This document shows positions 2,526-15,403 of a stretch of DNA of 64,000 bases, piece after piece (the first letter of the stretch is position 1; each line of letters starts with the position of its first letter). This DNA is from Georgenia sp. SYP-B2076. GTDB taxonomy: Bacteria; Actinomycetota; Actinomycetes; Actinomycetales; Actinomycetaceae. The position numbers were made by a program, and so were the translations under genes. Where the stretch lies: contig NZ_RXOZ01000011.1 in the NCBI RefSeq assembly GCF_003991205.1, positions 464,745-528,744 of the forward strand, written 5' to 3'. A model generated the notes under the pieces. It made no database searches. It was not told where the DNA came from and saw only the letters and a list, made by a program, of their open reading frames with translations.

Positions 2526-3371
2526 TCAGAGGCGGCAGGCGTGGATGGAGGTCACGAGGATGGCGCGGGCGCCGACGTCGTACAGGTCGTCCATCACCTT
2601 GTTGGTGATCGCCTTCGCCACCATCGCGCGCACGGCCACCCAGGCGCCGTCGTGCAGGGGCGAGATCGTCGGGGACTCGAGGCCGGGCGTGATGGCCACG
2701 GCGCGCTCGACGTGCTCGACCGGCACGTCGTAGTCCATGAGCACGTACCGGCGGGCCACCAGCACCCCCTGGAGACGGCGGTCGAGGACCTGCATGGCGG
2801 TGGTGACCTCGTGCCCCTCGGGGTGGATGAGCACGGCGGCGGAGTCGAGGATCGGGTCCCCGAACGTCTCCAGGCCCGCGGCGCGCAGGGTGGTGCCGGT
2901 CTCGACCACGTCGGCGACGACGTCGGCGATGCCGAGCTGGACGGAGGACTCCACCGCCCCGTCGAGGTGGACGACGCTCGCGTCGATGCCCCGCTCGGCG
3001 AGGTAGTTGCCGACGAGGACGTCGTAGCTCGTCGCCACCCGCTTCCCGCGCACCTGCTCGAGCGTGGTGATCTGCCCGGCGGGGGCCGCGAACCGGAACG
3101 TCGAGCGCGCGAAGCCGAGGTCGCGCAGCTCGACGGCGGCGACGCCCGAGTCGAGCAGGAGGTCCCGCCCGGTGATGCCCACGTCCACCGTGCCCGACCC
3201 GACGTACACGGCGATGTCACGCGGGCGCAGGAAGAAGAACTCGACGTCGTTGACCGGGTCGGCGAGCACGAGCTCGCGGTTGTCGCGGCGCTGGCGGTAG
3301 CCCGCCTCCGTCAGCATGGTCGAGGCGGGCTCGGACAGGGAACCCTTGTTGGGCACGGCGATACGCAGCAC
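2526..3371 (-). CDS. hisG: ATP phosphoribosyltransferase, long form (HisG)
   Basis: HisG condenses ATP with PRPP to form phosphoribosyl-ATP, the first and feedback-controlled step of histidine synthesis. The 281-residue length is that of the long, HisZ-independent form with a C-terminal regulatory domain. The N-terminus [15 protein letters not shown] and the C-terminal VTSIHACRL are hallmark sequences; the PRPP-binding region is around residues 145-165. The start is GTG at 3371, with GGAG 9 nt upstream. It follows hisE after a 95 bp gap that holds a very strong hairpin, so its expression may be partly uncoupled from hisE. Confidence 0.96.
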
Positions 3372-3416
3372 TTCTCAGCTCCGTGTGGGGGTGGGGTCGG
3401 TCGGGGACGTACGCGG

Positions 3417-3455
3417 CAGCGGGCCGGGCGGCGGCAGCCGCCGCCCGGCCCGCTG
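3417..3455. terminator. 39-nt palindrome between hisE and hisG
   Basis: A 19-nt arm (3417-3435) is followed by its exact complement (3437-3455) with one base between them. As RNA this gives a stem of about 17 bp with a 5-nt loop. It lies after the hisE stop and before the hisG start, read on the minus strand. No U-tract follows, so it could be an intrinsic-like terminator or attenuator, or a stability or processing element. Confidence 0.55.
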
Positions 3456-3466
3456 TGGCGTTGCGG

Positions 3467-3730
3467 TCACAGGTGGCGGTACACGTCGTCGAGGGTCAGC
3501 CCTCGCGCGATCATCACGACCTGGAGGTGGTAGAGCAGCTGGCTGATCTCCATCGCCGTGGCCTCGTCGCTCTCGTGCTCGGCGGCCATCCAGACCTCGG
3601 CCGCCTCCTCGACGACCTTCTTCCCGATGGCGTGGATGCCGGCGTCGAGCTCCGCGACGGTTCCCGAGCCCTCGGGGCGGGTCTCGGCCTTGTCCTGGAG
3701 CTCCGCGAAGAGCTGTTCGAAGGATTTCAC
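3467..3730 (-). CDS. hisE: Phosphoribosyl-ATP pyrophosphatase (HisE)
   Basis: HisE hydrolyses phosphoribosyl-ATP to phosphoribosyl-AMP and pyrophosphate, the second step of histidine synthesis. The 87 residues match the usual size of the stand-alone enzyme. It has the MazG-like helical signature [18 protein letters not shown] and the conserved [14 protein letters not shown] chose the GTG at 3730, which gives the family-typical VKSFEQLF start. TAGGGT (complement 3738-3743) lies 7 nt upstream, overlapping the ribY stop codon, which suggests a leaderless promoter of its own. Another in-frame GTG at 3739 is less likely. It begins 10 bp after ribY, so read-through from the FMN-riboswitch transcript is also possible. 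Confidence 0.93.
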
Positions 3731-3740
3731 GGCCCCCACC

Positions 3741-4781
3741 CTAGTTGCTCGCTCCGGGCAGGAACTGGTCGGTCCATGCGGCGGCGGGGTCGACCTCTCC
3801 CCCGAGCAGGCCGCGGCTCGAGAGCAGCCCCACCATGGCGTCCCAGGTGGCGGGGTCGTGGGCGCCGAGCGCGGGCCCCGCCTGGAACAGCGGCACCGTG
3901 GCCTCGAGTGCGGCGAGGGCCGCCTTCTGCTGGTCCGGACGGGCCAGGTCGGGCACGTACTTGGCGGAGAGCTCGACGGCGGCGCCGGGGTCGTCGATGA
4001 CGTCCTGCACGCCGTGCAGCGAGGCGGCGACGACGGCGGCCACGTCGTCCGGGCGGGCCTCGGCCGTCTTGTCGAGCAGCCCGAGGCTGATGCCGACCAG
4101 CGGCACCGTGCCCTGGGCGTCGTCCGGGATCGCGATGGTGCGCACGTCCATGCCGGCCTGCGCGAACCGGACGGCGTCGTTGTTGACGAACCCCATGACG
4201 GCGTCGACGTGGCCGGCGGACAGCGCCGCCTGCTGGGTGAAGCCGATGTTCTGCACGTCGACGTCCGACTCGGTCAGGCCGGCGCTGCCGAGCAGGGCCA
4301 GCAGCCCGAAGTAGGTCTCGCCGAAGGGGCCCGGGATGCCGACGCTGTGTCCCCGGAGGTCGGCGGCGGAGGTGATGTCGGAGTCGGCCGGGACGATCAG
4401 CACGACGGGGTAGCTCTGGTACAGGGTGGCCACCGACTTCAGCGGCACCCCCTGGGAGCGGGCCTGGAGCATCTCGTCCCCGCCGGCGACGACGAGGTCC
4501 TCCTGGCCCGCGCCGATCGCGGAGAACAGGCCCTCGCTGGCCCCGTGGTGGCGCAGCGTGACGTCGACCCCGGCATCCTCGTAGTACCCGCGCTCCGCGG
4601 CGACGTAGAACGGCGCGAACTGGATGTCCGGGGTGTACGTGAGGCCGATCGTCATCGCATCCTGCCCGGCGCTGGCCGAGTCCGTCGGGGGGGCGCTCGT
4701 GTCACCGGACGTGGGCGAGGCGCACGCGGCGAGGGTCAGCACGCCGGCGGCGAGGGCGGCGAGGGCGGGGCGGACGGTCAT
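3741..4781 (-). CDS. ribY: Riboflavin-type ABC transporter substrate-binding lipoprotein (RibY-like, NMT1/THI5 fold)
   Basis: The 346-residue lipoprotein has an N-terminal signal ending in the lipobox LAAC (near residues 16-19), then an NMT1/THI5-type binding domain starting [20 protein letters not shown]. By sequence alone it resembles hydroxymethylpyrimidine-binding ThiY. The operon, however, is headed by an FMN riboswitch, which points to riboflavin, as in the RibXY transporters of Chloroflexi and other bacteria. The ATG at 4781 has an excellent site, AAGGAGAACCTCT. It follows ribX after 50 bp. No ATPase gene is adjacent. Binding-protein class is sure; riboflavin as ligand is inferred from the riboswitch. 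Confidence 0.85.
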
Positions 4782-4831
4782 AGAGGTTCTCCTTGGGCTG
4801 GGGGCTTGATGGTCGGGGGCGGGTGGACGTC

Positions 4832-5731
4832 TCACCGGCGCTCCAGGTGGCGCTCGACGGCGCGGAGCAGGCCGAAGATGGCCATCGCGAGGGCGCAGAG
4901 CACGAGGAGCGCGGAGAAGAGGCCGGTGGTGTCGGAGGAGCCGCCGCGCACGGAGAGCACCTGGCCCAGCCCCTCGCCGCCCATGACGAACTCGCCGACG
5001 ACGGCGCCGGTGATGGAGAGCGTGAAGCCGTTGCGCAGCCCGGTCAGCAGGCTCGGCAGCGCGAGCGGGAGCTGGATGGTGCGCAGCAGGGCCCAGCCGG
5101 CCGCCCCGTCCAGGCGGGCCGCCTCGACGACGTTCCTGTCGACGGTGCTCAGACCGTGGACCGTGGCGAGGAGGATCGGGAAGAAGACCAGCAGCGCGCA
5201 GAGCGTGGCGATGGGGAGCAGGCCGTAGCCCAGCCAGATGACCAGCAGCGGCGCGATGGCGACCGCCGGGATGGCCTGCGAGGCGGCGATGTAGGGGTTC
5301 AGCGCGGCCGCGGCCCAGCGACTGCGGAAGACCGCGTACCCCAGGGGCAGGGCGACGACGGTGCCCAGCAGGCACCCGAGCAGCGCCTCGACCAGGGTGG
5401 GCACGGTGTAGCCGAGCAGGCCGCCCAGAGTGAGGTCCTGCCAGAGCCTGACGGCCACGGCGGTGGGCGCGGGGAGGAAGAACGCCGGGACCGCCCCGGA
5501 CCGGGCGGCGGCCTCCCAGACCAGGAGGCCGAGGAGGCCGACGCTCAGGGGGGCGATCCACCGGGGGCGCGCGGCGGTGGCTGTGCGGCGGCCGGCCGAC
5601 GTGACGGGCGTCGTGTGCCCGGCTGCGACGCGGGCCGCCGTGGGCCCGGGCGACGCGGACGGCGCGCCGTTCGTCGGCGCCGTGCCGCCCGTCGGCGCGG
5701 TGCCGGTCTCTCGCGCTGCCTCGGTACTCAC
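4832..5731 (-). CDS. ribX: Riboflavin-type ABC transporter permease (RibX-like)
   Basis: A 299-residue integral membrane permease of the binding-protein-dependent family. After a Pro/Thr/Ala-rich cytosolic leader of about 50 residues come roughly six hydrophobic segments. The EAA loop, EAARLDGAAGWALLRTIQLP, is near residues 200-220 and contacts the ATPase. I chose GTG at 5731 because GGGGAGGA sits at proper spacing. An upstream ATG at 5809 would add 26 residues but lies inside a hairpin and has no usable ribosome binding site. It is the first gene after the FMN riboswitch and is followed by ribY. The missing ATPase must come from elsewhere, as is common for ribXY loci. Confidence 0.87.
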   Translation of the reverse strand: MSTEAARETGTAPTGGTAPTNGAPSASPGPTAARVAAGHTTPVTSAGRRTATAARPRWIAPLSVGLLGLLVWEAAARSGAVPAFFLPAPTAVAVRLWQDLTLGGLLGYTVPTLVEALLGCLLGTVVALPLGYAVFRSRWAAAALNPYIAASQAIPAVAIAPLLVIWLGYGLLPIATLCALLVFFPILLATVHGLSTVDRNVVEAARLDGAAGWALLRTIQLPLALPSLLTGLRNGFTLSITGAVVGEFVMGGEGLGQVLSVRGGSSDTTGLFSALLVLCALAMAIFGLLRAVERHLERR

Positions 5732-5799
5732 TCTGCGTCCTCCCCGTCCGGGCACGTGGACCGGGGACGACGAGGCGCGCGGCAGAGCCGTCACCTCTT

Positions 5800-5822
5800 C
5801 GGCACGCATCGGATGCGTGCCG
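5800..5822 (-). promoter_or_regulatory. Perfect hairpin directly after the FMN aptamer
   Basis: A 10-bp stem (GGCACGCATC against its complement, with small edge variation) with a 3-nt loop abuts the 3' strand of aptamer helix P1. The P1 strand contains GCACGC, which also occurs in the first arm of this hairpin. The second arm (GCGTGC) could therefore pair with either, giving mutually exclusive folds. This is a candidate expression platform. There is no U-tract, and the ribX ribosome binding site is about 65 nt further on. Confidence 0.5.
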
Positions 5823-5947
5823 CGTGCTTCCTCCCATCCGGACTTTTACCGTCGGTCCTGGAGTTCCACCAGGTCAACCGGCACCGTGAGGTGCGCGGCT
5901 CGCGGACTGTCACCGCCGGTTCGGACTCTCACCGACCCCGGAGCACG
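5823..5947 (-). ncRNA. FMN riboswitch (RFN element)
   Basis: Read on the minus strand, the segment contains the conserved blocks of the FMN aptamer in order: GGGGTCGGTGAGAGTCCGAA, CCGGCGGTGACAGTCCGCGA, GGTTGACCTGGTGGAACTCC, then AGGACCGACGGTAAAAGTCC and GGATGGGAGGAAGCACG. The outer helix P1 pairs CGTGCTC with GAAGCACG. The element precedes ribX on the same strand. FMN binding normally lowers expression of riboflavin synthesis or uptake genes, so ribXY should be switched on when FMN is scarce. Confidence 0.95.
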
Positions 5948-5963
5948 TGCTTGCTACCCGCGC

Positions 5964-5969
5964 ATAGTA
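5964..5969 (-). promoter_or_regulatory. Candidate -10 of the ribXY transcript
   Basis: TACTAT fits the actinobacterial TANNNT pattern. It would start transcription about 10 nt before the FMN aptamer, so the mRNA leader would begin almost with helix P1. No convincing -35 is visible. Confidence 0.4.
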
Positions 5970-5980
5970 ACGCGTGCGCC

Positions 5981-6005
5981 GCCCGCCCGGGTGGGGCGGG
6001 CGGGC
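5981..6005 (-). terminator. Terminator hairpin after pcaG
   Basis: GCCCGCCCG and its complement CGGGCGGGC form a 9-bp G/C stem with a 7-nt loop, 9 bp beyond the pcaG stop. It separates the pca transcript from the ribXY promoter. Confidence 0.55.
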
Positions 6006-6013
6006 CGCGGGGG

Positions 6014-6604
6014 CTAGACCGCGAAGAAGACGGTCTCGCCGGGTCCCTGGACCCGGATGTCGAAGCGGTACCCGTCGCCGTCGCGCCGGGCGATGAGCGT
6101 GCCGCGGCGGTCGGCCGGGACGGACTGCAGCACCGGGTCGGTGTCGTTGAGCGGCTCGCCGGGGAAGTAGATGCGCGTCACGCAGCGGTCGAGCATGCCG
6201 CGGGCGAGCACGTTCACGTCGATGTGCGGCGCCTCCACCGGGCCGTCGGCGCCGTCGACGTCCGCCGCGGGCAGCGCGCCGGGGCGCACCGTGTGCACGC
6301 GCCAGCTCAGGTCGTCCTCCCAGGTGGCGCTGCGGCCGAGACCGGTGAAGCCCTCCACCGTGCTCGGGCGCGCGCCGCGCGGGTCCTCGGGGGTGTCGAA
6401 CCGCCCCTCGGGGTCGGCCTGCCACGTCTCGACCAGGGCGTCCCGCATGGGCTCGCCGTCGCCGTCGAGCACCAGCCCGGTGATCCAGAACGCGCCCGGC
6501 GTGCCCTCGGGCACGACCATCCGGCCCTCCGCGCCCCAGTCCAGGCCGATGGCCAGGTACGGGCCGACGGTCTGTGACGGGGTCAGTCCGAGACGCTCAC
6601 TCAT
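6014..6604 (-). CDS. pcaG: Protocatechuate 3,4-dioxygenase, alpha subunit (PcaG)
   Basis: The alpha subunit pairs with PcaH in the intradiol dioxygenase that opens the protocatechuate ring to 3-carboxy-cis,cis-muconate. The 196-residue protein has the typical N-terminus TPSQTVGPYLAIGL, the domain core ALVETWQADPEGRFDTPED and the C-terminal IRVQGPGETVFF. As expected for an alpha chain, it lacks the full Tyr/Tyr/His/His iron set carried by PcaH. Its ATG at 6604 overlaps the pcaH stop by 8 bp, so the pair is translationally coupled. It is the last gene of the transcript. Confidence 0.95.
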   Translation of the reverse strand: MSERLGLTPSQTVGPYLAIGLDWGAEGRMVVPEGTPGAFWITGLVLDGDGEPMRDALVETWQADPEGRFDTPEDPRGARPSTVEGFTGLGRSATWEDDLSWRVHTVRPGALPAADVDGADGPVEAPHIDVNVLARGMLDRCVTRIYFPGEPLNDTDPVLQSVPADRRGTLIARRDGDGYRFDIRVQGPGETVFFAV

Positions 6605-7373
6605 CGTCCTCGTCCTCCTCTTCCTCGAAGACGCTGGCCTCGGGCCCGCGCAGCACGATGTCGAACTCGAAGGCCAGCGCCCAGGTGTCCTCGGTCTTGG
6701 CGTAGTCGAAGCGGGAGATCATCCGGGCGCGGGCCTTCTCGTCCCGGACCGAGTTGTAGATCGGGTCCTGGAAGAACAGCGGGTCGTCGGGGAAGTACAT
6801 CTGGGTGACGAGGCGCTGGGTGAACGCGCGGCCGAACAGCGAGAAGTGGATGTGGGCCGGGCGCCACGCGTTCGGGTGGTTCCGCCAGGGGTACGCGCCG
6901 GGCTTGACGGACGTGAAGCGGTACCTGCCCTCGGCGTCGGTCAGCATGCGCCCGACGCCGACGAAGTTCGGGTCGAGCGGCGCGGGCCAGGTGTCCCACA
7001 CGTGCGCGTAGCGCCCGGCCGCGTTGGCCTGCCACACCTCCACCAGGGTGTTCGGGACCGGCCGGCCGTCCTCCTCGAGCACGCGGCCGTGCACGATGAT
7101 CCGCTGGCCGATCGGCTCCCCCGGCCCGCCGTGGGCCACGGTGAGGTCGTTCTCGTTCTCCCCCACGCGGTCGTTGCCGAACACCGGGCCGGTGAGCTCG
7201 GTGAGCCGCTGCGGGAGCGCCCGGAGCGGCTCCTTGGGGTGCCGCTTCACGGTCGAGAGGTACTCCGGGCTGTCGAGCGGGGGGTGCACGTCCTGGGGTA
7301 TCGGGTACTGGGGGACCACCAGGCCGCCACGGGTGATGGCCCCCGGGGCGCGGAGATCGTGCAGACCGCTCAT
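6597..7373 (-). CDS. pcaH: Protocatechuate 3,4-dioxygenase, beta subunit (PcaH)
   Basis: The beta subunit carries the catalytic non-haem Fe(III). In this 258-residue protein the iron ligands are visible as a Tyr in GRYAHVWDTW and then Tyr, His and His in AYPWRNHPNAWRPAHIHFS near residues 175-193. The C-terminus is unusually acidic (EEEEDEDDE). The ATG at 7373 has AGGAGAGG upstream; an earlier in-frame codon would add 27 residues that do not fit the family. A good promoter lies about 90 bp upstream. It diverges from the uptake and pobA genes, which supply its substrate. Confidence 0.96.
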   Translation of the reverse strand: MSGLHDLRAPGAITRGGLVVPQYPIPQDVHPPLDSPEYLSTVKRHPKEPLRALPQRLTELTGPVFGNDRVGENENDLTVAHGGPGEPIGQRIIVHGRVLEEDGRPVPNTLVEVWQANAAGRYAHVWDTWPAPLDPNFVGVGRMLTDAEGRYRFTSVKPGAYPWRNHPNAWRPAHIHFSLFGRAFTQRLVTQMYFPDDPLFFQDPIYNSVRDEKARARMISRFDYAKTEDTWALAFEFDIVLRGPEASVFEEEEDEDDE

Positions 7374-7466
7374 GTCGTCCTCTCCTGGGTCACGTCCTCG
7401 TGCCGCACGCGCACCGGCCGCGAGGGACGTCCCTCGTGTTCCCCATGCGCACACTTGTTCCCGGGG

Positions 7467-7495
7467 ACGCTAACGGAGGCGCCGAGTGTCGTCAA
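7467..7495 (-). promoter_or_regulatory. pcaHG promoter
   Basis: On the minus strand TTGACG (complement 7490-7495) and TAGCGT (complement 7467-7472) are separated by exactly 17 bp, close to the sigma-A consensus. Transcription would start near 7460, leaving a leader of about 87 nt before pcaH. Confidence 0.65.
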
Positions 7496-7563
7496 TCACA
7501 TCTACCGGCCGGGAGCCGTCGAAAACCACGGTATGCCCGCGGCCAGAAGTACGCGCCGCCTGC

Positions 7564-7593
7564 TTGACGTGGGACCTACGTCACCCCTACGTT
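7564..7593 (+). promoter_or_regulatory. Promoter of the aromatic-acid importer/pobA operon
   Basis: TTGACG (7564-7569) and TACGTT (7588-7593) are separated by 18 bp. The -10 overlaps the first half of the GTTC-N7-GAAC operator pair, so a protein bound there would block or reshape RNA polymerase binding. Confidence 0.6.
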
Positions 7594-7624
7594 CTCCCTG
7601 CGAACTCAAGTTCCCATCGAGAAC
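7591..7624. promoter_or_regulatory. Paired 15-bp inverted-repeat operator, likely for the IclR regulator
   Basis: Two copies of GTTC-N7-GAAC, at 7591-7605 and 7610-7624, lie 19 bp apart start to start. Tandem short palindromes fit the two-dimer DNA binding known for IclR-family regulators of pca and pob genes. The first copy overlaps the -10 of the importer promoter. Binding by the IclR protein encoded at 12526-13332 is inferred. Confidence 0.6.
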
Positions 7625-7781
7625 GACGAGGCGCGCCTGTGCAACGCGGCGCAGGACCAGCCGGCCCCACCCCTGGCCATGACCGTACCGACGACGCCCA
7701 AGACAGGCTGAACGACAGCTGGACCGCACGAGCGGGGGCCGAGCCATCACCCCGCCGGCACCCCCGACATAAGGACCAAGA

Positions 7782-8774
7782 ATGCGAATGCGACGCACAC
7801 CGATGGTGCTGGCCGCCGCCACCGCCCTCATGCTCACCGCGGCCTGCTCCGGCGGGGGCTCCGACGAGACCCCCAGCGCGGCCGGGTCCAGCGACGCCGC
7901 CAGCGGCGGAGAGCTGACCTCCATCACGGTCGGCGTCCTGCCCATCGTCGACACCGCGGCCATCTGGCTCGGCAAGGACAAGGGCATCTTCGAGGAGCAC
8001 GGGCTGGACATGAAGCTCGAGGTCGCGCAGGGCGGTGCCGCCGTCGTGCCCGCCGTGGTCTCCGGGGAGTACCAGTTCGGCTTCTCCAACGTCACCTCGC
8101 TGCTCGTGGCCAGCGGCAAGGGCCTGCCCCTCAAGCTCGTGGCCCCGGGTAACTTCTCCACCGGTGACACGAAGTCGGACATCGGCGCCGTCGTCGCGAT
8201 GCCCGCCTCCGGCATCACGTCCCCCGCCGACCTGGCCGGCAAGACCGTCGCCGTGAACACCCTGAACAACATCGGCGACTCGACCGTGCGCGCGGTCGTG
8301 GACAAGGCCGGGGGCGACCCCTCGACGATCAAGTTCGTCGAGATGGGCTTCCCGGACATGCCCGCCGCCGTGGCCTCCGGCAAGGTGGACGCCGCGTGGA
8401 TCCTCGAGCCCTTCCTGACGATCACCAAGGAGCAGGGCGCGCAGGTCGTCACCTACAACTTCGCCGAGGTCGACCCCGACCTCATGATCGCGGGCTACTT
8501 CACCTCGCAGCAGTACGAGCAGAGCGACCCCGACACCGTCAGCGCCTTCACAGACGCCATGGAGGAGTCGCTGAGCTACGCGCAGCAGCACCCCGACGAG
8601 GCGCGCGCCATCCTGAGCACCTACACGGAGATCGACCCCACCGTGCAGGAGAAGATGGTCATGCCGCGGTTCGAGAGCGCCATCAACGCCGACAGCGTCC
8701 AGCTCCTGGCCGACCTCGCCCTCAAGTACGGCCTGGTCACCGAGCCCGTCGATGTGAGCAAGCTGCTGCCATGA
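7782..8774 (+). CDS. ABC transporter substrate-binding lipoprotein, probable aromatic acid
   Basis: The 330-residue periplasmic-type binding protein belongs to the NMT1/SsuA/TauA group. A signal peptide ends in the lipobox TAAC near residue 21, and the mature part begins ITVGVLPIVDTAAIWLGKDK. The start ATG at 7782 follows AAGGACC. It is the first gene of a tightly overlapping set with two permeases, an ATPase, pobA and an IclR regulator, and its stop overlaps the next start (ATGA). Gene context makes 4-hydroxybenzoate or a related benzoate the likely ligand. Sequence alone would also allow sulfonates or other anions. Confidence 0.85.
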   Translation: MRMRRTPMVLAAATALMLTAACSGGGSDETPSAAGSSDAASGGELTSITVGVLPIVDTAAIWLGKDKGIFEEHGLDMKLEVAQGGAAVVPAVVSGEYQFGFSNVTSLLVASGKGLPLKLVAPGNFSTGDTKSDIGAVVAMPASGITSPADLAGKTVAVNTLNNIGDSTVRAVVDKAGGDPSTIKFVEMGFPDMPAAVASGKVDAAWILEPFLTITKEQGAQVVTYNFAEVDPDLMIAGYFTSQQYEQSDPDTVSAFTDAMEESLSYAQQHPDEARAILSTYTEIDPTVQEKMVMPRFESAINADSVQLLADLALKYGLVTEPVDVSKLLP

Positions 8775-9616
8775 GCACCGCGGCCCTCTCGACGAACGCC
8801 GCCACCCCCGGCACGGCCTCTCCCCCGCGACGACGCCCGCGTCGTCGCGGGGGGAAGGCCGTGCTGGGCCTGGCGGGCATCCTCTGCGTGGTCGCGGTGA
8901 TCGAGCTCGCGCCGCGGGTCGGCATCGTCGACCGGCGCTTCCTGCCCCCGTTCTCGGAGATGTTCGCGGCGCTGGTCGCGCGGGTCCAGACGCCCGAGTT
9001 CTGGACGGCGTTCGGGCAGACCCTGACGACGTGGGCGGTCGGCCTGGTCATCGCGATGGCCGCGGGGATCGTCATCGGGATCGTCGTCGGCGGCATCCCC
9101 GTGCTGCGCGAGGCGACCTCGTCGACGATCGAGTTCCTGCGCCCGATCCCGTCCGTCGCGCTGATCCCGCTCGCCGTGCTCCTGTACGGCACCGGCATGC
9201 GCTCCACGCTCCTGCTGGTGGTCTACGCGTCCTTCTGGCAGGTCCTCGTCCAGGTCCTCTACGGGGTCCAGGACGTCGACCCGGTCGCGCGGGACACCGC
9301 GCGCTCGTACCGCTTCAAGGCGCTGACGCAGGCCCGCACGGTCATCTGGCCCACGGCGCTGCCCTACGTCGTCACCGGCTTCCGGCTCGCCGCCACGGTG
9401 GCGCTGATCCTGACGATCACCGGCGAGCTGATCATCGGCACCCCGGGCCTGGGCAAGCTGCTGGCCGTCGCCCAGCAGTCCGGCGCGGTGGCCTCGATGT
9501 ACGCGCTCGTGATCGTCACCGGGCTGCTCGGCGTCGCCGTCAACGTCCTCGCCCGGCTCGTCGAGCGCCGGGTCCTTCGCTGGCACCCCTCGGTGCGACG
9601 GGAGAGTGCCGCATGA
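8771..9616 (+). CDS. ABC transporter permease (first of two)
   Basis: A 281-residue inner-membrane permease of the SsuC/TauC type. A basic cytosolic N-terminus is followed by about six hydrophobic segments and an EAA-type loop around DTARSYRFKALTQARTVIWP. The ATG at 8771 overlaps the binding-protein stop by 4 nt. The next gene encodes a second, different permease of the same length, so the channel is probably a heterodimer. Confidence 0.9.
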   Translation: MSTAALSTNAATPGTASPPRRRPRRRGGKAVLGLAGILCVVAVIELAPRVGIVDRRFLPPFSEMFAALVARVQTPEFWTAFGQTLTTWAVGLVIAMAAGIVIGIVVGGIPVLREATSSTIEFLRPIPSVALIPLAVLLYGTGMRSTLLLVVYASFWQVLVQVLYGVQDVDPVARDTARSYRFKALTQARTVIWPTALPYVVTGFRLAATVALILTITGELIIGTPGLGKLLAVAQQSGAVASMYALVIVTGLLGVAVNVLARLVERRVLRWHPSVRRESAA

Positions 9617-10458
9617 GCACCACCACGACCCCCATCACCGCCCCGACCGTGCGGCCCGCCGGGCGCCGGGCCCGCCGGGGGATGTCCACGGGCAGGCGCG
9701 TCCTGCTCGTCGTCGCCCTGCCGGTGGTCCTGATCGCCGCCTGGTGGGTGGCCTCCGCCGGCTCGACGAGCTTCTTCTTCCCGCCGCTGCGCACGATCCT
9801 GGGCGTCTTCCCCGACACGTGGCTGACCGGCCGGATCGCCTCCGACGTCCTGCCCTCGCTGTTCCGGCTCGTGGCCGGCTATCTCATCGCCCTGGTCGCG
9901 GGGATCGGGCTGGGCATGCTCATCGGCCTGAACCCGCTGCTGCGCGCGTTCACCGAGCCGGCGCTGGAGTTCTTCCGCGCCATCCCCCCGCCCGTGATGA
10001 TCCCGATCCTCATGCTCTTCCTGGGCATCTTCACGCCCATGAAGGTCTTCGTCATCGCCACCGGCTGCGTGTGGCCCATCCTGCTCAACACCATCGAGGG
10101 GGTGCGCGGCATCGACGACGTCCTGCGCGACACCTCCCGCGTGTACCGCCTGGGCACCGCCGCACGGCTGCGGACCCTGGTGCTGCGCGGCGCCTCGCCG
10201 CAGATCATGACCGGGGCCCGCCAGGCCCTGTCCATCGGCATCATCCTCATGGTCATCTCCGAGATGTTCGCCGCGAACAACGGACTCGGCTTCACCATCG
10301 TCCAGTTCCAGCGCAGCTTCGCCCTCCCCGAGATGTGGACCGGCATCATCCTGCTCGGCCTCGTCGGCGTCCTGCTCTCCATCATCTTCCGCGCCGTCGA
10401 GCGCCCCGTCCTGGCCTGGTACACCGGCCTGCGGCGGTCCCAACGAGGAGGTAACTGA
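9613..10458 (+). CDS. ABC transporter permease (second of two)
   Basis: A 281-residue permease of the same family as its neighbour but clearly diverged. The cytosolic loop reads DTSRVYRLGTAARLRTLVLR, followed by a block with ILMVISEMFAANNGLGF. Its ATG at 9613 overlaps the preceding stop (ATGA), and its own stop overlaps the ATPase start (TGATG). Tandem non-identical permeases in one operon indicate a heterodimeric translocation pore. Confidence 0.9.
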   Translation: MSTTTTPITAPTVRPAGRRARRGMSTGRRVLLVVALPVVLIAAWWVASAGSTSFFFPPLRTILGVFPDTWLTGRIASDVLPSLFRLVAGYLIALVAGIGLGMLIGLNPLLRAFTEPALEFFRAIPPPVMIPILMLFLGIFTPMKVFVIATGCVWPILLNTIEGVRGIDDVLRDTSRVYRLGTAARLRTLVLRGASPQIMTGARQALSIGIILMVISEMFAANNGLGFTIVQFQRSFALPEMWTGIILLGLVGVLLSIIFRAVERPVLAWYTGLRRSQRGGN

Positions 10459-11363
10459 TGTCCACCCCCACCGACCGCCCCGCCCCCGGCTCCACGCTGC
10501 TCGACGTCCGCGCCCTCCACAAGGTCTACCCCGGCGCCGACGGCGGCACCGAGGCCATCCGCGACCTCACCTTCGAGGTCCGCGCCGGGGAGATGGTCTG
10601 CATCGTGGGCCCCTCCGGCGCGGGCAAGACCACGCTGCTGCGCTGCATCTCGGGCCTGCTCGCCCCCAGCTCCGGCCAGGTCGTCCTCGAGGGCACCGCC
10701 ATCTCCGGGCCGCCCAAGGGCATGGCCGTCGTGTTCCAGGAGTACGCCCGGTCCCTGTTCCCCTGGCTGACCGTGGCGCAGAACGTCGAGCTGCCCCTGA
10801 AGGAGAAGGGCCTGGGCAAGGCCGAACGCAAGCGGCTGGTCGCCACCGCCCTGGACGCCGTCGGCCTCGCCGACGTCCCCGCCTCCTACCCCTGGCAGCT
10901 CTCCGGCGGCATGCAGCAACGCGTCGCCATCGCCCGCGCCGTGGCCTACGAACCCCACATCCTCCTCATGGACGAGCCCTTCGCCGCCGTCGACGCCCAG
11001 ACCCGCGCCGACCTCGAGGACCTCGTCCGTGCCCTGTGGCACCGCCTGGGCGTGACCGTCCTGTTCGTCACCCACGACATCGACGAGTCCATCTACCTCG
11101 GCCAGCGGGTCCTCGTCCTCTCCGGCCGCCCCACGGTGATCCTCGAGGACGTCACGGTCAACCTGCCCGACGAGCGCGACCAGCTCACCACCCGCAACGA
11201 CCCCGAGTTCGCCCGCCTGCGCGCCCACATCTACGACCTCGTCCAGAAGGCCAAGCGCGGCTACCGCCCGGGCGACGACGTCTTCGTGCCCGCCGCCGGC
11301 GCGCGCGGCGACCTGCCCCCGACGGTCGGTGACGGCCCCTACGCCGGTCTCGCGGGCGCATGA
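10458..11363 (+). CDS. ABC transporter ATPase
   Basis: The 301-residue ATPase energises the importer. Visible motifs in order are Walker A GPSGAGKTT (about residues 51-59), Q-loop VVFQEYARSLFPW, signature LSGGMQQR, Walker B ILLMDEP and the switch histidine in VTHDIDES. The SsuB/TauB-type length includes a C-terminal tail after about residue 250. The start has a strong site, CGAGGAGG, and overlaps the previous stop by one base. Its own stop overlaps pobA, tying uptake and catabolism into one transcript. Confidence 0.94.
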   Translation: MSTPTDRPAPGSTLLDVRALHKVYPGADGGTEAIRDLTFEVRAGEMVCIVGPSGAGKTTLLRCISGLLAPSSGQVVLEGTAISGPPKGMAVVFQEYARSLFPWLTVAQNVELPLKEKGLGKAERKRLVATALDAVGLADVPASYPWQLSGGMQQRVAIARAVAYEPHILLMDEPFAAVDAQTRADLEDLVRALWHRLGVTVLFVTHDIDESIYLGQRVLVLSGRPTVILEDVTVNLPDERDQLTTRNDPEFARLRAHIYDLVQKAKRGYRPGDDVFVPAAGARGDLPPTVGDGPYAGLAGA

Positions 11364-12529
11364 GCACGGAGCGGACGCAGGTCGTCGTCGTCGGCGCCGG
11401 CCCCGCCGGCCTGCTGCTGTCACACCTGCTCCATGAGGAGGGCATCGCCACGATCCTCGTGGAGGCGCAGGACCGCGACTACGTCCAGGCCCGGGTGCGC
11501 GCCGGGGTCATCGAGCACGGCGCCGCCGACATCCTGCGCCGCGCGGGCGTCGGGGACCGGATGGACCGGGAGGGACTCCCGCACGAGGGCATCGAGCTGC
11601 GCTTCGACGGCACCGCGCACCGCATCGCCATGACGGACCTCACGGGGCGCCACATCACCGTCTACGGGCAGCAGGAGATCGTCCACGACCTGACCGAGCG
11701 GCGGCTCGCCGACGGCGGCGACGTCCGGTTCGCCTGCGGGCCGGCGGCGATCCACGACATCGACTCCGCGGAACCGTCCGTCACGTACACCGCGGACGGC
11801 GGCGAGCACCGCATCGTGGCCGACTTCGTCGTCGCCTGCGACGGCGCCCACGGCGCGGGCCGCCCCGCCCTCGGCGGCGCCCTGACACCCATCGAGAAGG
11901 TGTACCCGTTCGCGTGGCTGGGGATCCTCGCCCACGCCGCGCCGCGCATCCACGAGCTCGTCTACGCCAACCACGAGAACGGCTTCGCCCTCTACTCGAT
12001 GCGGTCCCCGACCGTCACACGGCTGTACCTGCAGGTGCCGTCCACCGACCGCCTCGAGGAGTGGCCGGACGAGCGCATCTGGGACGAGCTCGCGCTGCGG
12101 TTCAGCCTCGACGGCCAGCCGTGGGAGCCGACCCGCGGGGAGATCTTCGAGCGCTCGCTCGCGCCCCTGCGCAGCTACGTGGGCGAGCCCATGCAGCGCG
12201 GCAGGCTGTTCCTGGCCGGCGACGCCGCCCACACCGTGCCCCCGACCGGCGCCAAGGGCATGAACCTGGCGATCCGCGACGTCGACCTCCTCGCCCGGGC
12301 GCTCACCGAGCAGGTCCGCACCGGCGAGGAGGCGGGGCTGCGGACGTACACCGACCGCGCGCTCCGCGCCGTGTGGCGGGCCGAGTACTTCTCGTGGTGG
12401 ATGACCACGATGCTCCACCGCTTCGACGCCGACTCCGCCTTCGACCGGCGGGTGCAGACGGCGCAGCTGACCAACGTGGTCTCCTCGCGCGCCTACTCCA
12501 CGGCGCTGGCCGAGAACTACGTGGGATGA
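11360..12529 (+). CDS. pobA: 4-hydroxybenzoate 3-monooxygenase (PobA)
   Basis: PobA is an FAD enzyme that uses NAD(P)H and oxygen to turn 4-hydroxybenzoate into protocatechuate, the substrate of the divergent PcaHG. The 389-residue length is typical. The dinucleotide-binding motif VVVGAGPAGLLLSHLL is at residues 8-23, the DG motif is near residue 160 (VACDGAHG), and the flavin motif GDAAHTVPPTGAKGMNLAIRD is near residues 286-306. Its ATG overlaps the ATPase stop and its stop overlaps the IclR start, so all are co-transcribed. Confidence 0.95.
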   Translation: MSTERTQVVVVGAGPAGLLLSHLLHEEGIATILVEAQDRDYVQARVRAGVIEHGAADILRRAGVGDRMDREGLPHEGIELRFDGTAHRIAMTDLTGRHITVYGQQEIVHDLTERRLADGGDVRFACGPAAIHDIDSAEPSVTYTADGGEHRIVADFVVACDGAHGAGRPALGGALTPIEKVYPFAWLGILAHAAPRIHELVYANHENGFALYSMRSPTVTRLYLQVPSTDRLEEWPDERIWDELALRFSLDGQPWEPTRGEIFERSLAPLRSYVGEPMQRGRLFLAGDAAHTVPPTGAKGMNLAIRDVDLLARALTEQVRTGEEAGLRTYTDRALRAVWRAEYFSWWMTTMLHRFDADSAFDRRVQTAQLTNVVSSRAYSTALAENYVG

Positions 12530-14737: not shown

Positions 14738-15403
14738 TCAGTGCCGGTGGGCCTGCTGCGCGAGCCCGCGCAGCGCGTCGACCTCGGCGGCGGCGTCGTC
14801 CGCCTTGTACACCGCCGAGCCGGCCACGAAGACGTTGGCCCCCGCGTCGGCGGCCCGCTCGATCGTGGCGCGAGAGACGCCGCCGTCGACCTGGACCCAC
14901 ACGTCGAGGCCGGAGGCGGAGATCGCCTCGCGGGTGCGGCGGATCTTCGGCAGGGTGCCGTCGATGAAGGACTGGCCCCCAAAGCCGGGCTCCACGGTCA
15001 TCACGAGGATCATGTCGAACTCGGGCAGGAGGTCGAGGTAGGGCTCGATCGGCGTGGCCGGCCGCAGCGCCAGCCCGGCGCGGGCCCCGGCGGCGCGCAG
15101 GTCGCGCGCGAGCTTCACGGGCGCGGTCGCCGCCTCGGCGTGGAAGGTCACCGACGCGCAGCCGGCCTCGGCGTAGGCGGGGGCCCAGCGGTCCGGGTCC
15201 TCGATCATGAGGTGCGCGTCGACGGGCACGGGCGTGGCGCGGACGATGGCCTCGACCACGGGCAGGCCGAGGGTCAGGTTCGGCACGAAGTGGTTGTCCA
15301 TGACGTCCACATGCGCATAGTCGGCGCCGGCGATCTTGGCGAGCTCTCCGCGCAGGTCGGAGAAGTCGGAGTTCAGGATGCTCGGGGAGATGAGGATGCT
15401 CAC
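14738..15403 (-). CDS. rpe: Ribulose-phosphate 3-epimerase (Rpe)
   Basis: Rpe interconverts ribulose 5-phosphate and xylulose 5-phosphate in the pentose phosphate pathway. The 221-residue TIM barrel shows all family motifs: [36 protein letters not shown] and VQVDGGV, which supply the metal-binding His and Asp residues. The start is GTG at 15403, preceded by GGGGGA and, in the same spot, by TAGTCT six nt upstream, so it may be translated with or without a leader. In many actinobacteria rpe is followed by riboflavin genes and hisE; here an aromatic-acid module intervenes. Confidence 0.96.

Follow-up and report, generated by a model that had tools for sequence, protein, structure and literature searches.

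Known riboflavin importers and the locus of Georgenia sp. SYP-B2076

The closest described counterparts of the locus analysed here are the RibXY transporters of Chloroflexus aurantiacus and the actinobacteria. RibXY was first named, and its missing ATPase in Chloroflexi noted, in PMC3766115. It is already known from PMC4418817 that RibXY stands under FMN riboswitches in Actinobacteria, with and without riboflavin synthesis. The same paper reports that an E. coli ribB mutant carrying C. aurantiacus RibXY regains growth at low riboflavin, sets an initial RibY criterion of more than 38% identity to the C. aurantiacus protein over 80% of its length, and cites a ribZ ATPase gene in a few Chloroflexi. 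PMC6593275 places RibXY in both prototrophs and auxotrophs. A related arrangement appears in PMC5301498: in an acI-A4 actinobacterium the sole FMN switch precedes a putative pnuC/PnuX gene, the rib operon is absent, and the organism is a predicted auxotroph.

The locus of Georgenia sp. SYP-B2076 shares with RibXY the FMN riboswitch, a permease paired with an NMT1-type protein, the lack of an ATPase gene in the operon, and occurrence in lineages with or without synthesis. It differs in having hisE-hisG behind ribXY, in its position in the slot between rpe and hisE, and in a second FMN switch before a synthesis operon 10 kb off. With acI-A4 it has in common a transporter gene under an FMN switch, whereas the transporter family is another and the Georgenia strain is not predicted to be an auxotroph.

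We found no publication on this locus among titles and abstract openings on riboflavin in Actinomycetaceae, Actinomyces or Georgenia and on FMN riboswitches and auxotrophy in Actinobacteria, a scope with most subscription literature outside it. As far as the literature found shows, what is added here is the pattern of a fixed regulatory address with exchangeable cargo, together with family-wide numbers.

Throughout, the window is the whole stretch of 64,000 nucleotides that was analysed, and C1 marks contig coordinates of the same genome (G000, 99.8% complete). Further G numbers denote the other genomes compared and L numbers the sequence stretches, or loci, that were read. The small set comprised 59 genomes including G000, 37 of them within the family (Actinomycetaceae) and 22 outside it; the order is Actinomycetales. 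The large set comprised 213 family genomes, 199 of which were good, with completeness of 90% or more and contamination of 5% or less.

An FMN riboswitch in front of ribXY

A reading of the sequence without database searches had described a complete FMN aptamer upstream of a permease gene and a gene for an NMT1/THI5-type binding protein, and the searches bore out both elements. An Rfam scan matched the FMN riboswitch aptamer (RFN element, RF00050) at 5821..5949 on the minus strand over its full length (positions 1-138 of 138), scoring 93.6 bits (gathering score 66.2, E value 2.9e-20); no further RNA family match in the window reaches gathering score. Behind it on the same strand lie the adjacent genes ribX and ribY. 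The longest ribX frames begin within the aptamer or just past its end. Because a GGGAGG-like element and a start codon match the GTG at 5731 across 11 aligned leaders, we consider that codon the likely start, over the ATG at 5809 or a still longer frame, and took ribX as 4832..5731, encoding an ABC permease of 299 amino acids (PF00528, 114.4 bits on the longer frame 4832-5809). The ribY gene (3741..4781) encodes a lipoprotein-type substrate-binding protein of 346 amino acids that matches PF09084, the NMT1/THI5-type family, with 146.5 bits; its Cys20 is invariant in 22 of 22 aligned RibY sequences and is inferred to carry the lipid anchor. The listed frame of hisE (3467..3739, minus strand; NF001610, 158.3 bits) opens 1 base past the ribY stop, hisG follows at 2526..3371 (minus strand; TIGR00070, 183 bits), and a bPH-domain gene comes after the two.

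From the switch, the domains, the conservation of Cys20 and the phyletic pattern below, we hold with high confidence that the unit at 3741-5949 encodes a riboflavin importer of the RibXY type, in a genome with riboflavin synthesis of its own, and the identification of such an importer under FMN control in the sequence-only reading stands.

Phyletic pattern and substrate

Because the nearest solved relative of RibY by sequence is the pyrimidine-binding, ThiY-type protein 3ix1, it is the switch and the phyletic pattern that carry the substrate assignment. For the latter we called RibY in the 213 family genomes with profile A1 at E <= 1e-40 and used lumazine synthase as a stand-in for the whole riboflavin pathway. 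RibY was present in 197 genomes and lumazine synthase in 53; 39 had both, 158 RibY only, 14 lumazine synthase only, and 2 neither, both of these being less than 90% complete. The corresponding counts in the 199 good genomes were 37, 149, 13 and 0. Since the genomes are related, Fisher p values do not count independent events, and the point is the empty class: no good genome lacks both RibY and lumazine synthase, which supports riboflavin import by RibXY. We predict that most family genomes, namely those with RibY and without lumazine synthase, are riboflavin auxotrophs; G000 is not among them.

In the small set lumazine synthase is absent from 23 of the 59 genomes; GTP cyclohydrolase II is missing as well in 21 of these, all but G008 and G015. 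Among the 80 named loci, an FMN switch lies upstream of ribY on the same strand in 58. It was not found in the other 22, three of which are too near a contig end (L112, L134, L184) and 19 of which come from Streptomyces, Kitasatospora or Saccharothrix. Four switch-bearing loci are titled Ktedonobacterales or Chloroflexi (L150, L163, L168, L191), with a match of 47-53%.

Two other substrates can be weighed against this evidence. RibXY might mainly import a different flavin, such as FMN, breakdown products or a flavin analogue, and not riboflavin itself: PMC4418817 cites binding of flavins, in the plural, by C. aurantiacus RibY. The same paper also has C. aurantiacus RibXY supporting growth on riboflavin. 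Riboflavin uptake would need flavokinase, and the retention of this enzyme in 58 of the 59 genomes, among them every one of the 23 that lack lumazine synthase (it is missing only in G014), therefore counts against a different flavin, which we consider improbable.

ThiXYZ pyrimidine importers, which draw their binding protein ThiY from the same family as RibY (PF09084), are preceded by a TPP riboswitch and include an ATPase gene in their operon. This kinship, and the fact that the best PDB match by sequence, 3ix1, is a formylaminopyrimidine-binding protein, would suit a pair that imports a thiamine pyrimidine precursor, with the FMN switch reflecting flavin control of something else. Such a reading is very unlikely, since the ThiXYZ features are absent at ribXY: the aptamer is of the FMN type, no TPP riboswitch reaches gathering score anywhere in the window, no ATPase gene lies beside ribXY, and the neighbours are hisE-hisG and pca genes. 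Nor is RibY ever missing where lumazine synthase is missing in the 199 good family genomes.

Riboflavin synthesis outside the window

The preferred reading, riboflavin import in a genome that also makes riboflavin, draws its second half from beyond the window. A second FMN riboswitch of G000 lies at C1:460752-460881, about 3.9 kb to the left of where the window begins, and behind it on the same strand is a complete ribD-ribE-ribBA-ribH operon (about C1:457146-460881, with the lumazine synthase gene ribH at C1:457182-457589). All four are open frames; for ribD, ribE and ribH the score exceeds the curated cut-off of one or more NCBIfam models, and the two halves of ribBA each exceed their domain cut-off. 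Flavokinase is present as well. The two switches of G000 are thus about 10 kb apart, one before ribXY and one before the synthesis genes, so that synthesis and uptake would form two arms of one FMN regulon.

The suggestion of the sequence-only reading that synthesis had been lost and that the organism might be an auxotroph was plausible yet produced by a window edge, and is corrected here: that G000 lost synthesis and put RibXY in its place has next to no probability, because, even with ribXY and not the rib operon in its rpe-hisE interval, as in many relatives without lumazine synthase, the complete operon with its own FMN switch just outside the window refutes auxotrophy at the gene level. 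Two FMN switches and lumazine synthase occur in seven of the eight congeners; the remaining one, G008, which would lend the discarded view support by analogy, has a single switch, no lumazine synthase, and the ribXY-hisE-hisG block.

Divergent from the ribD riboswitch is a flavin monooxygenase gene (C1 about 461125-462564; L004:5126-6565, plus strand) that scores 893 bits against a cut-off of 800 with the NCBIfam rifampin monooxygenase model.

The rpe-hisE slot

Outside the family, 19 of the 22 genomes had an FMN match, and 17 of these were read (20 loci; G051 and G057 were left out). Five of the 17 (G039, G040, G050, G052, G058) have the order rsmB-rpe-switch-rib genes (ribDE(BA)H)-hisE-hisG. 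This actinobacterial locus has the same flanks (rsmB, rpe, hisE, hisG) and the same switch position as the RibXY slot and differs from it in cargo, which is synthesis in the one and uptake in the other. G049 shows rpe, the switch and then a contig end inside ribD. The rib operon lies elsewhere in three further genomes, where the slot holds ribXY (G048) or a PnuC-like gene (G041 and G046; TIGR01528 with 33.3 bits, under the cut-off, and 44.0 bits, over it). Five genomes (G037, G042, G043, G053, G055) have rib genes at a switch, with neither rpe nor hisE within the stretch, and in G045 ribXY runs opposite to a nearby hisG. None of the query genes follows the switch in G038 or G054. The G038 stretch (L065, 9580-13017) has an FMN switch before a gene resembling an ECF S component, together with a long frame read as an ECF ATPase plus transmembrane parts.

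Within the family, rpe is at most 200 bases upstream of the switch in 18 of the 33 RibXY loci read and 1.8-8.8 kb away in six; it was not found in the stretch read in the remaining nine. That uptake replaces synthesis at the rpe-hisE slot therefore holds at the level of the lineage, as had been proposed: five of 17 order genomes carry rib genes there, 18 of 33 family loci have RibXY close to rpe, and in 149 of the 199 good family genomes RibY occurs in the absence of lumazine synthase. The locus offers a natural series, from synthesis only through both to uptake only, in which to study the replacement of a vitamin pathway by uptake under a single riboswitch.

For G000 itself, the placement of the pair between rpe and hisE-hisG was right on one side. 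The hisE-hisG genes are directly downstream; rpe is not adjacent and sits 8.8 kb upstream of the switch as an open frame at 14738..15403 (minus strand; PF00834, 245.8 bits). The interval contains an aromatic-catabolism cluster (6014..12529) with pcaG (6014-6604) and pcaH (6597-7454) on the minus strand and, on the plus strand, a second NMT1-type ABC transporter operon (7782-11363; binding protein, two permeases, ATPase) and pobA (11360-12529), along with two frames whose translations we read as those of an IclR-type regulator and an MFS-type transporter. Because rpe is 47 bases from the switch in G010, and 1.8-8.8 kb away in six family genomes including G000, the slot seems to have received the cluster by insertion. 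The operon at 7782-11363, beside pobA and pcaGH, probably encodes an importer of aromatic acids; an operon of this type adjoins ribX in G021, and the stretch read there has no pcaGH match.

History of the importer and the synthesis operon

In a tree of RibD, RibE, RibBA and RibH (27 rows, quick method), G000-G005 form one group (98), while G006 and G007 fall with G016 and G021 (100). The rib operon of G006 and G007 is also at another place relative to a gene labelled WYL-type from its translation (no NCBIfam match). In the tree of RibX and RibY the same two genomes stand beside G015, inside a group with all Georgenia rows. From these two trees and the operon's place, it would seem that the importer has stayed put and the synthesis operon has moved; the latter may have been regained or exchanged. 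A HisG and Rpe tree, in which six of 39 inner branches were starred, had support too poor for use as a species tree.

We also considered, and rejected, a recent duplication of the riboswitch inside G000. Its own two aptamers match each other at 85%, whereas its ribX aptamer matches that of G005 at 98% and its ribD aptamer that of G016 at 94%. In G001 and G003-G007 the nearest aptamer likewise precedes the same gene. The pattern is less clear in G016, G021, G036 and G011; the ribX aptamer of G016 is nearest to that of the PnuC-like gene of G041, at 86%. Mean aptamer identities in the family are similar in all combinations: 75.5% between RibX aptamers, 77.1% between RibD aptamers, and, between RibX and RibD aptamers, 73.4% in different genomes and 79.2% in the same genome (11 genomes).

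Taken jointly, we give an even chance to the following composite picture. The slot switch would be a fixed regulatory address in the order, with exchangeable cargo in the form of a synthesis operon, RibXY or a PnuC-like carrier. Within the family the importer would be stationary and nearly universal, and the synthesis operon lost, moved and possibly regained, with roughly three in four genomes predicted to be auxotrophs and a rib operon of other ancestry at another site in two congeners. RibXY would use the ATPase of another ABC system.

Leader anatomy and proposed control

An RNA model (R1) with just 24 pairs served for detection only. Directly after the aptamer a hairpin at 5801..5821 (minus strand, as are all leader features) is formed in MFE folds of the G000 leader and has at least 6 pairs in 7 of the 11 leaders folded. 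In alignment 57.1% of its cells are paired, and the pair count gives it no support; that count says little, because the leader alignment (A3) seems misaligned there. A second hairpin, at 5742..5766, has 8-10 pairs in the MFE folds of all 11 leaders and covers part of the Shine-Dalgarno-like GGGGAGG of ribX (5739..5745), 7 bases before the GTG at 5731; we propose it as the expression platform. There, 94.9% of cells are paired, with nearly no covariation. The two-helix structure has one pair changed on both sides, a value reached by 195 of 500 shuffles, and the G000 leader fold is not unusually stable against shuffles (z -1.17). No alternative pairing linking the aptamer and the Shine-Dalgarno hairpin was established in the ribX leader.

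This anatomy suggests that control of ribX is translational. A scan of 3300-6700 gave one terminator-like site, inside ribX, with 0.4 expected. The nearly gapless succession of hisE-hisG after ribXY would fit translational and not transcriptional control. FMN made from riboflavin would bind the ribX leader and close the aptamer, and the bound state would most likely favour the hairpin over part of the Shine-Dalgarno sequence. Translation of ribX would then drop and import fall when flavin is plentiful, with transcription presumably continuing into hisE-hisG.

The ATPase of RibXY

In the importer RibY would act as the binding protein, probably lipid anchored, and RibX as the permease; the ATPase is probably encoded elsewhere and shared with another system. 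The operon in the window has no ATPase gene beside ribXY, and a search of the 80 named loci with one ATPase query gave three matches above 45 bits, none adjoining ribXY (in L115 the match is in a separate NMT1 operon; in L156 and L175 it lies away).

The window's ATPase at 10458-11363, which belongs to its own NMT1-type operon, served as a NitT/TauT-type query. In six small RibXY-only genomes (G017, G025, G027, G031, G032, G033) the best matches reached 130-157 bits, the same range as the 132-142 bits in three family genomes without RibXY (G019, G034, G035). Larger RibXY-only genomes have closer ATPases: 579 bits in G008, for its copy of the NMT1 operon, and then 299. The match of G010 has 270 bits and a stop inside. 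In five of the six small genomes the best matches resemble PotA/PhnT2, UgpC, MetN or ProV. In G027 (L196, 211-3649) the ATPase is NitT/TauT-like, with a permease gene on one side and a further binding-protein gene behind it, and we read it as part of a complete ThiXYZ-like operon of its own. Genomes this small have few candidates, and in them the missing ATPase of RibXY becomes testable.

Other flavin genes

G000 encodes a fusion of GTP cyclohydrolase II with the C-terminal reductase domain of RibD (G000:C15:4465-5898; L104, plus strand). The fusion was also found in G008 (L105), G015 (L106), G007 (L109) and G021 (L110). In G008 and G015, both of which lack lumazine synthase, it is kept at 77-79% identity and may thus serve something other than riboflavin. 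Retention for F420 synthesis was considered and set aside: the cofH cut-off was reached by none of the 37 family genomes, and only G014 matches (41.4 bits).

The ribBA homologue in the rib operons of G005, G006, G007, G016 and G021 (L048, L049, L050, L055, L056) has 221-268 residues and corresponds to RibB without the RibA half. Each of these genomes has GTP cyclohydrolase II just once, presumably in the fusion, to which G007 and G021 have a near full-length tblastn match. In Streptomyces sp. APSN-46.1 (L142, about 3634-6903) the order is FMN switch, RibBA-like match, ribY, and RibX is matched on the opposite strand.
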